Below, in pieces: positions 14,661 through 16,524 of a DNA stretch of 36,712 nt. The translations under genes were made by a program, and so were the position numbers. The stretch's first letter is position 1. Every line of letters starts with the position of its first letter. This DNA is from Hyphomicrobiales bacterium. Lineage in GTDB: Bacteria; Pseudomonadota; Alphaproteobacteria; Rhizobiales; Rhodomicrobiaceae. Below the pieces are notes generated by a model. The model was not told the DNA's origin and made no database searches. It worked only from the letters and a program-made list of their open reading frames with translations. Location: assembly GCA_019634405.1 (NCBI GenBank), contig JAHQVI010000213.1:1-36712 (forward strand). Reading direction: 5' to 3'.

Positions 14661-16463
14661 ATGCTGAGTTGTCTGCGGCTATTGCCGCGCCCCGTGATCT
14701 TTGCGGGTACCGTTTCCATGACGATCTTACCTGCAAACGCAACCGATCTTTATACGCCAGCTGCGAGTTCGACCTACAGAGACGCACCGGCGGTGGTTTC
14801 CCATCCCAATTGGGCTGGCTTTTATGCGGGTGGCCATGTTGGCGGCGGTTGGAACAATGGCTACGGCCGGGACTTTGTTGTTGAAGGCGGAACCGGCGGC
14901 GGCGGCGGCGGCGGCGGCGGCGACAATCGTTACGGCGGAGATCAGGGAACGATTGACGGCAAGAACGGCCAGGACGGCAATTTTGGTGGAGCCGGTGGAG
15001 CCGGTGGCAATTCCGGCGATAGCAATAGCAGACGCATCGGTGGCACAGGAGGTAACGGTGGTGCGGGCGGTCTCGTCAATGGGACCTCGGACGACAACAC
15101 GGCGCTGATGGGCGGTATCCATCTCGGCTATAACTGGCAGTATGGCAAGCTCGTCTTCGGCTTCGAAGGCGACGTGTCCTTAAACGATAGCGCGGACGAT
15201 TATCTGGCGAGCATTCGCGCTCGTATCGGCATTACGCCGCGCCCGGACTTACTGACCTATGTGACCGCGGGTCTTGCATACCGCGAGGGCGGTGGCGCTG
15301 GCGCGATCGGTCTTGGAAGCTCAGGCGGCTTTGGCGGCGCTGGCGGACAGAATGACGATGGCCAGGATGATATTGGCGAAGACGGCGATGCTGACCGGTT
15401 AGGGGGTGTCGGAGGCGCTGGCGGCGCTGGCGGTGATGGGTCGTTTGCAGGGTTCGAGGATGAAAGTTCTAGCGACGCAGGCTTCGTTCTGGGCGCTGGC
15501 GTGGAATATATGCTGACCGGTAATGTCAGCTTTGGTGTCGAGGGCCTCTACTACACCTTCAAAGACGATCAAGACGTGACCGCCATACGCGGACGTTTGA
15601 CGCTTCACCTTGATCGTAGCCCACATGACAGCTTCAAGGACAGCATCCTGTCCGGGACGGTTGCGAACTGGTCAGGCTTCTATGCTGGCGGCAGCATTGG
15701 CGCGGGCTTTGGTTCAGGCGAACGTGCGGCATCAGTCAAGACCGATAATGGTCAAGATGGTCAGGACGGCGAGCGTGGCGCTGAAGGCAGTGTGAATTCA
15801 AATGGCGAACTCCCGAATGGGGATGGCATCGACGATCCAGGCGGAGCTGGCGGCGGTGGCGGCGGCGGCGCAGCAGCGCTCGTTACGCTCGAAAACGACT
15901 CCGGATTTCTCGGCGGCGTGCATGTCGGCTACAACTGGCAGGATGAATCGCTGGTATACGGTCTTGAGGGCGACGCCAGTTGGGGTGACAGAAGTTTCCG
16001 CGACTATCTGGCTTCAGTCCGCGTTCGTGTCGGTCATTCGTTTGATCAGGTCCTCCTTTACGGAACGGCTGGCGTTGCATTTGGCGGCCGCTCAGGTGCT
16101 CTCCAGTCTGTATCCCTGAGCAGCGGCGGCAACGGAGGCGACGGGAATAACGGCTCTTTCGAGAATGACCCTGCATTTGATAACGGAGTTGGCGGCGCTG
16201 GCGGCGCCGGTGGTCAAGGAGGCACGGCAACAGTCACTTATGACGATGGTGACGATCAAGTCGGCTTCGTCGTCGGTGGCGGTGTCGAAGTGAAGCTGTG
16301 GGACAATACCAGTTTCGGTCTGGAAGGTCTGTATTACGGCTTTGATGGTGAGGACGCCACTTCGAGCACGACCTCTTACGGCGCTGGCGACGATCTTTCC
16401 TCGACGGTCGTTCGTGGACGAATGACAATCCACCTTCAGGATGAACCAAATCCGCTGAAGTAG
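14661..16463 (+). CDS. Outer-membrane protein with two tandem beta-barrel domains and glycine-rich loops
   Basis: This 600-residue protein has a signal peptide ending near ILPANA (about residue 28). Two homologous units follow. Unit 1 begins at NWAGFYAGGHVGGGW (about 50) and ends at RGRLTLHL (about 318). Unit 2 begins at NWSGFYAGGSIGAGF (about 336) and ends at RGRMTIHL (about 593). Both contain GGIHLGYNWQ or GGVHVGYNWQ, FEGD/LEGD, DYLASIRARIG or DYLASVRVRVG, and FGVEGLYYTF or FGLEGLYYGF. This is the Omp25/Omp31-like 8-strand barrel pattern of Rhizobiales, usually present once. Each unit has two Gly/Asp-rich insertions at equivalent places (about 76-140 and 210-260; 355-405 and 485-520), presumably surface loops. 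A terminator follows. Function is unknown. Confidence 0.82.
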   Translation: MLSCLRLLPRPVIFAGTVSMTILPANATDLYTPAASSTYRDAPAVVSHPNWAGFYAGGHVGGGWNNGYGRDFVVEGGTGGGGGGGGGDNRYGGDQGTIDGKNGQDGNFGGAGGAGGNSGDSNSRRIGGTGGNGGAGGLVNGTSDDNTALMGGIHLGYNWQYGKLVFGFEGDVSLNDSADDYLASIRARIGITPRPDLLTYVTAGLAYREGGGAGAIGLGSSGGFGGAGGQNDDGQDDIGEDGDADRLGGVGGAGGAGGDGSFAGFEDESSSDAGFVLGAGVEYMLTGNVSFGVEGLYYTFKDDQDVTAIRGRLTLHLDRSPHDSFKDSILSGTVANWSGFYAGGSIGAGFGSGERAASVKTDNGQDGQDGERGAEGSVNSNGELPNGDGIDDPGGAGGGGGGGAAALVTLENDSGFLGGVHVGYNWQDESLVYGLEGDASWGDRSFRDYLASVRVRVGHSFDQVLLYGTAGVAFGGRSGALQSVSLSSGGNGGDGNNGSFENDPAFDNGVGGAGGAGGQGGTATVTYDDGDDQVGFVVGGGVEVKLWDNTSFGLEGLYYGFDGEDATSSTTSYGAGDDLSSTVVRGRMTIHLQDEPNPLK

Positions 16464-16486: not shown

Positions 16487-16524
16487 AAGCCCGGAACGGA
16501 AACGCTCCGGGCTTTGCTCTTTTT
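16487..16524 (+). terminator. Intrinsic terminator after the double-barrel outer-membrane protein gene
   Basis: AAGCCCGGA at 16487-16495 pairs perfectly with TCCGGGCTT at 16506-16514 across a 10-nt loop, followed by a T-rich tract ending in TTTTT at 16520-16524. It starts 23 bp after the stop codon. Confidence 0.88.

Follow-up and report, generated by a model that had tools for sequence, protein, structure and literature searches.

A two-barrel outer-membrane protein with glycine-triplet loops in the Rhodomicrobiaceae, probably formed by fusion of tandem Omp25/Omp31-like genes

The DNA analyzed here, referred to as the window, is a stretch of 36,712 nucleotides (contig C206) from a 2.8-Mb genome that is 82% complete. 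On the plus strand, an open reading frame, exact at 14661-16463 and starting at ATG, encodes a protein of 600 residues and is a free-standing gene. Its upstream neighbor is a PPK2 gene; downstream lie an open reading frame of 164 residues without a Pfam match and then a Dps/ferritin-like gene. The ortholog of the protein (L009), found in Rhodomicrobium sp. R_RK_3 (G001) of the same family, is flanked by genes for LysE and an FAD monooxygenase. Operon partners were considered and rejected, as the neighbors are unrelated and differ between the two genomes, and for the same reason the genomic context gives no clue to function. The features of the gene are listed below.

14661..14741, plus strand: putative signal peptide, residues 1-27; a hydrophobic stretch, then ANA/TD (cleavage ...PANA/TD)
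14742..14816, plus strand: mature N-terminal segment before barrel 1, with the motif STYRDAP, equivalent to S[YF]KDxP of single-unit paralogues
14817..15608, plus strand: barrel 1, eight strands, residues 53-316 (AlphaFold2 strands, Foldseek, profile 82.5 bits)
14856..15098, plus strand: barrel 1 L1, Gly-rich insert of 81 residues with about three GXX tracts (pLDDT < 50)
15291..15467, plus strand: barrel 1 L3, 59 residues; GXX tract, acidic NDDGQDDIGEDGDAD turn, GXX tract; net charge -11; conserved in the ortholog
15609..15674, plus strand: inter-barrel linker of 22 residues, LDRSPHDSFKDSILSGTVANWS; short predicted helix, resembling a mature N-terminus
15675..16433, plus strand: barrel 2, eight strands, residues 339-591 (AlphaFold2 strands, profile 132.2 bits)
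15732..15884, plus strand: barrel 2 L1, 51 residues; collagen-like GQDGQDGERGAEGS tract, turn, GGAGGGGGGG
16119..16253, plus strand: barrel 2 L3, 45 residues; GGNGGDGNNG, ENDPAFDN turn, GGAGGAGGQGG
16344..16394, plus strand: barrel 2 L4, acidic, not Gly-rich
16434..16460, plus strand: C-terminal tail ...QDEPNPLK after the last strand, a lineage-specific -LK tail
16487..16514, no strand assigned: 12-bp G+C-rich hairpin just past the stop, with a T-rich plus-strand stretch (TTTGCTCTTTTT)

The start of the protein looks right for a signal peptide, with an equivalent cleavage site, A(A)/ADL, at the same place in the single-unit paralogues, and the protein is probably secreted and of the outer-membrane type. 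The hairpin past the stop was scored by the tool on the minus strand; together with the T-rich stretch we infer it to be, likely, the plus-strand terminator of the gene, which would then probably be monocistronic.

The sequence-only reading of the window had proposed two full Omp25/Omp31-like copies in one polypeptide, and this is borne out. Aligned with BLOSUM62, residues ~49-318 and ~333-600 score 456, against 101 ± 13 (maximum 144) in 300 shuffles, and the two units are 45% identical. A profile built from 26 relatives, with the protein and its ortholog left out, matches unit 1 at 82.5 bits (residues 50-309) and unit 2 at 132.2 bits (336-600), and the best of 200 shuffled controls reaches 3.5 bits. 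The paired motifs named in the earlier reading are all present and in the order it gave. The conserved blocks are WxGFYAGG in strand β1, GGxHxGYNWQ in β2, xxGxEGD in β3, DYLASxRxRxG in β4, LxYxTAGxA in β5, GFVxGxGVE in β6, SFGxEGLYY in β7, and RGRxTxHL in β8. The signature WxGFYxG...GYNWQ...YLASxRxRxG...GLYY...RxRLTxH and the eight strands are shared with the single-barrel Omp25/Omp31-like OMP_b-brl proteins (PF13505) of the Hyphomicrobiales, which differ in having one unit and no Gly-triplet inserts: their densest stretch of 40 residues has a median of 10 Gly, versus 22 and 17 for the two units of the window protein. Pfam PF13505 scores 20.2 on the 600-residue protein (E=0.0007), under its gathering cut-off of 28.7, which we attribute to the Gly-rich insertions. 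An eight-strand barrel and a match to the relatives-only profile together place the units in this family.

AlphaFold2 was run on the full-length mature protein with 27 alignment rows, only 5 of which cover barrel 1. In mature numbering, the model contains eight strands (26-38 to 278-289), a short helix, and eight main strands (312-330 to 552-564), with a pLDDT of 80-96 for most barrel strand blocks and ~40 in the Gly-rich inserts. Unit 1 modeled alone (30 rows) also has eight strands, and Foldseek relates this model to OmpX, Ail, the OmpA transmembrane barrel, NspA, and OprF with target-normalised TM values of 0.53-0.64; the whole protein had no match among PDB sequences. The strand count and the Foldseek matches suggest that the barrels are closed. 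We consider it very likely that the chain carries two separate eight-strand barrels with Gly-triplet inserts in their loops. The sixteen strands in total, and some Foldseek rows to large porins that cover both units, could also be read as one large 16-strand pore formed by the units together, but these rows have an rmsd of ~20 Å and query-normalised TM values of 0.12-0.16, unit 1 folds as eight strands by itself, and homologues are normally single-unit, so that such a pore is highly improbable. A single 16-strand barrel was rejected on the AlphaFold2 models and the poor rows to large porins; two eight-strand barrels with low-confidence (disordered or unresolved) loops agree with the structural outcome that the earlier reading had named as support for its claim.

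In each unit, the Gly-rich inserts are placed between β1 and β2 (L1) and between β5 and β6 (L3), which upholds the earlier claim of long Gly/Asp-rich insertions at equivalent positions. In the OmpA-type topology, L1 and L3 are extracellular. By analogy with this topology, the two barrels would lie next to each other in the outer membrane, and all four inserts would face the exterior of the cell.

The ortholog is 61% identical to the window protein and shares its two-unit layout and its loops. Its unit 1-linker-unit 2 junction is also the same, which rules out that the two-unit open reading frame is an artefact of joining or assembly, as the ortholog belongs to another genus. In the unit tree, unit 1 pairs with ortholog unit 1 and unit 2 with ortholog unit 2 (100/98 each), and the fusion therefore predates the split of the two genera; this age and the 45% identity between the units agree with the duplication having been called old. 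Both unit pairs form one clade, with support of 94/80 in one tree and 95 in another. Without a signal peptide, the linker (...HDSFKDSILSGTVANWSGFY) resembles the start of the mature single-unit paralogues (SYKD...WxGFY), and because of this resemblance the fusion of adjacent tandem genes is the simplest reading and the likely origin of the two-unit protein. All in all, the gene product is probably a two-barrel outer-membrane protein that arose when two tandem Omp25/Omp31-like genes fused. Four single-unit Omp25/31-like genes, whose products have very Asp-rich loops, also lie one after another on the same strand in Rhodomicrobium sp. R_RK_3 (L029, G001:C22:38500-44000), and tandem genes of this kind are a likely source pool for fusions.

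The ortholog's open reading frame is split in the public genome. In its first Gly tract (L009:1480-1506), a copy of unit-2 sequence is followed by a single N, which is a repeat-induced assembly chimera or gap that splits the frame. Frameshift or phase variation was considered and rejected, since the split coincides with the single N and the chimeric unit-2 copy, i.e., with an assembly gap.

The view that two copies are exceptional in the family did not hold. In a census of 397 genomes of the order, using a two-unit profile followed by a domain count, proteins with two or three units were found in at least 16 genomes among the top matches. Most of these proteins fall in separate clades of the unit tree, which suggests about ten independent fusion events in the order. 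A second, independent two-unit barrel protein lies in a genome of the same family (L036:861-2393, G007); its units are more alike mutually, and it has no Gly loops. Three-unit tandem barrel proteins with open frames of 720-903 residues were found in several families (L052, L055, L056, and L058, from G386, G216, G101, and G032, and also L007 and L008), and they seem to go back to two or more separate triplications in the order. The two- and three-unit relatives (L036, the Bradyrhizobium protein L008, those of G216, G101, and G032, and others) resemble the window protein in that what is left of a mature N-terminus links their units, and they, including L036 and the Bradyrhizobium three-unit proteins, differ from it in being independent fusions without Gly-rich loops. 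Plasmid-borne relatives gave only weak single-unit matches.

Multi-barrel outer-membrane proteins, which share with the window protein more than one β-barrel domain per chain, are a published though little-studied class according to PMC11494523, PMC9603273, and PMC8592465, citing Solan et al. 2021 PNAS (doi 10.1073/pnas.2104059118). In the best-studied members, GfcD and YjbH, the barrels have 12 and 13 strands and a periplasmic domain is present, unlike the two eight-strand OmpA-type barrels, short linker, and Gly-triplet loops described here. The window protein belongs to this class, with two complete barrel domains on one chain and an architecture kept in the ortholog. Tandem barrels by themselves are an already-known class and are not rare.

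A short -LK or -LR tail after the last strand replaces the usual terminal aromatic residue in Omp25/31-like proteins of the family. It was found in 23 of 28 such proteins of the family and in 1 of 49 outside it (Fisher p ~9e-14, only indicative as the sequences are related). Besides the window (16434-16460), the tail occurs at L006, L012, L014, L016, L017, L025, L029, L031, L032, L033, L035, L036, L044, and L047, and it may serve lineage-specific sorting to the outer membrane.

The unusual part of the protein is its loops. The inserts at residues 66-146, 211-269, 358-408, and 487-531 contain 43, 41, 33, and 36% Gly and have net charges of -4, -11, -7, and -7, within a mature protein of net charge -47. 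About nine GXX tracts of four to six triplets run across the loops, with acidic non-Gly turns between them. Local Gly density was compared across 104 units (median 10 per 40 residues), and the four top values, 22, 17, 17, and 16, belong to the units of the window protein and its ortholog. No further members with Gly loops were found in 397 genomes of the order or 385 genomes of the class (overlapping subsamples), and the Gly-triplet loops are so far restricted to the window genome and Rhodomicrobium sp. R_RK_3. Within the loops, Gly recurs at lag 3 in 59 cases against 33.7 expected (z 7.1), with a harmonic at lag 6 (z 3.5) and no excess at lags 1, 2, 4, and 5. The lag-3 value was reached in none of 1000 doublet-preserving shuffles, whether the poly-Gly runs were kept or left out, and at lag 3 the loops of the ortholog behave in the same way (z 4.6). 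The likeness to PGRS sequence noted earlier stands in composition, and the GXX periodicity makes a PGRS-like polyglycine-II (PGII) fold testable, but the inserts are not simply PGRS-like runs, as the significant pattern is Gly at every third position.

Such a pattern might be a by-product of the DNA, with the loops being low-complexity disordered filler that grew by replication slippage at GGC repeats and is tolerated outside the cell. A (CGG)9.7 microsatellite does lie within barrel 1 L1 (14894-14922) and several 9-bp repeats are present, GGX tracts can arise by expansion of 9-bp repeats, slippage at GGC repeats could produce a triplet pattern, AlphaFold2 shows disorder in the loops, and the equivalent tract broke the ortholog assembly. 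Conservation speaks against this origin as a full account. Loop identity to the ortholog is 53-66% versus 67% in the strands, where barrel 1 L1 is compared only from its middle onward because the assembly gap has removed part of the first Gly tract of the ortholog. Gly is conserved at 72 of 84 aligned loop positions (86%, versus 65% in shuffled and 69% in triplet-shuffled controls), as compared with 56 of 129 other loop residues, and yet the codons are identical for only 35 of these 72 glycines. Conservation despite codon turnover argues that the loop glycines are now under selection, and we regard mere filler as unlikely. The loop pattern is genuine and conserved, unlike the tandem barrels an uncommon property.

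The acidic loops, with three partial matches to GGxGxD, also raise the reading of a calcium-binding surface domain of RTX or EF-hand-like type; the sequence-only reading had suggested that the Asp/Gly composition might bind Ca2+. There is no complete RTX nonapeptide (GGxGxDxUx), no DxDxDG motif, and no Pfam match to a calcium-binding domain, and this reading is very unlikely despite the strong acidity of the loops. RTX, EF-hand, and collagen domains were all rejected for the 600-residue protein on the lack of a complete motif or Pfam match.

As a different possibility, all four loops jointly, or pairs of them, may fold into an extracellular PGII bundle or sandwich, a rigid platform with acidic turns as a recognition surface, by analogy with phage gp38 adhesins and modeled PGRS domains. 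Small PGII sandwiches have five to six antiparallel helices of three to four triplets each (PMC9436101), which is near the size of the GXX tracts here, and their period-3 Gly is matched in both the window protein and the ortholog. The layout of tracts and turns corresponds to gp38, a PGII sandwich from which variable recognition loops protrude (PMC12892980), and the retention of glycines through codon turnover also fits. The PGRS domains of PE_PGRS proteins and gp38 of phages S16 and PP01 share the GXX/GGX tracts and period-3 Gly with the window protein, but they are not homologous to it and are anchored differently, and the PGII fold is here a hypothesis. Period-3 Gly tracts of at least three triplets with intervening turns are present; as to packed helices, loop pLDDT is ~40, whereas PGRS sandwiches are reportedly predicted by AlphaFold (PMC9436101). 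One loop, used in a short search of PDB sequences, gave no match, and an alignment of two homologues is too shallow to decide. On this balance, a PGII bundle is possible but doubtful, and slightly more doubtful is the fuller proposal that the loops of the two tandem barrels jointly build a surface display platform with the acidic turns as its tips. We know of no described PGII display platform built from barrel loops in outer-membrane proteins.

In the reading that we tentatively prefer, while giving it less than even confidence, the two eight-strand barrels would serve as membrane anchors rather than pores, and the inserts would form acidic, hydrophobic-poor Gly-triplet arms, either extended polyglycine-II-like hairpins or dynamic brushes. 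With two barrels on one chain holding four arms side by side, the arms could make up a layer that is hydrated and carries negative charge. Such a layer would either shield the cell surface or use cations to bridge weak contacts to surfaces, polysaccharide, or neighboring cells.

The protein offers a clean example of the origin of a multi-barrel outer-membrane protein, in which tandem single-barrel genes have probably fused, the mature N-terminus of the second copy being retained as a linker and its signal peptide dropped. About ten such events in one order suggest that multi-barrel proteins are more numerous in the outer membrane than annotation records. Should the Gly-triplet loops adopt the PGII fold, a barrel would be able to bear a surface structure, rigid and tolerant of sequence change, that annotation misses as 'low complexity'.
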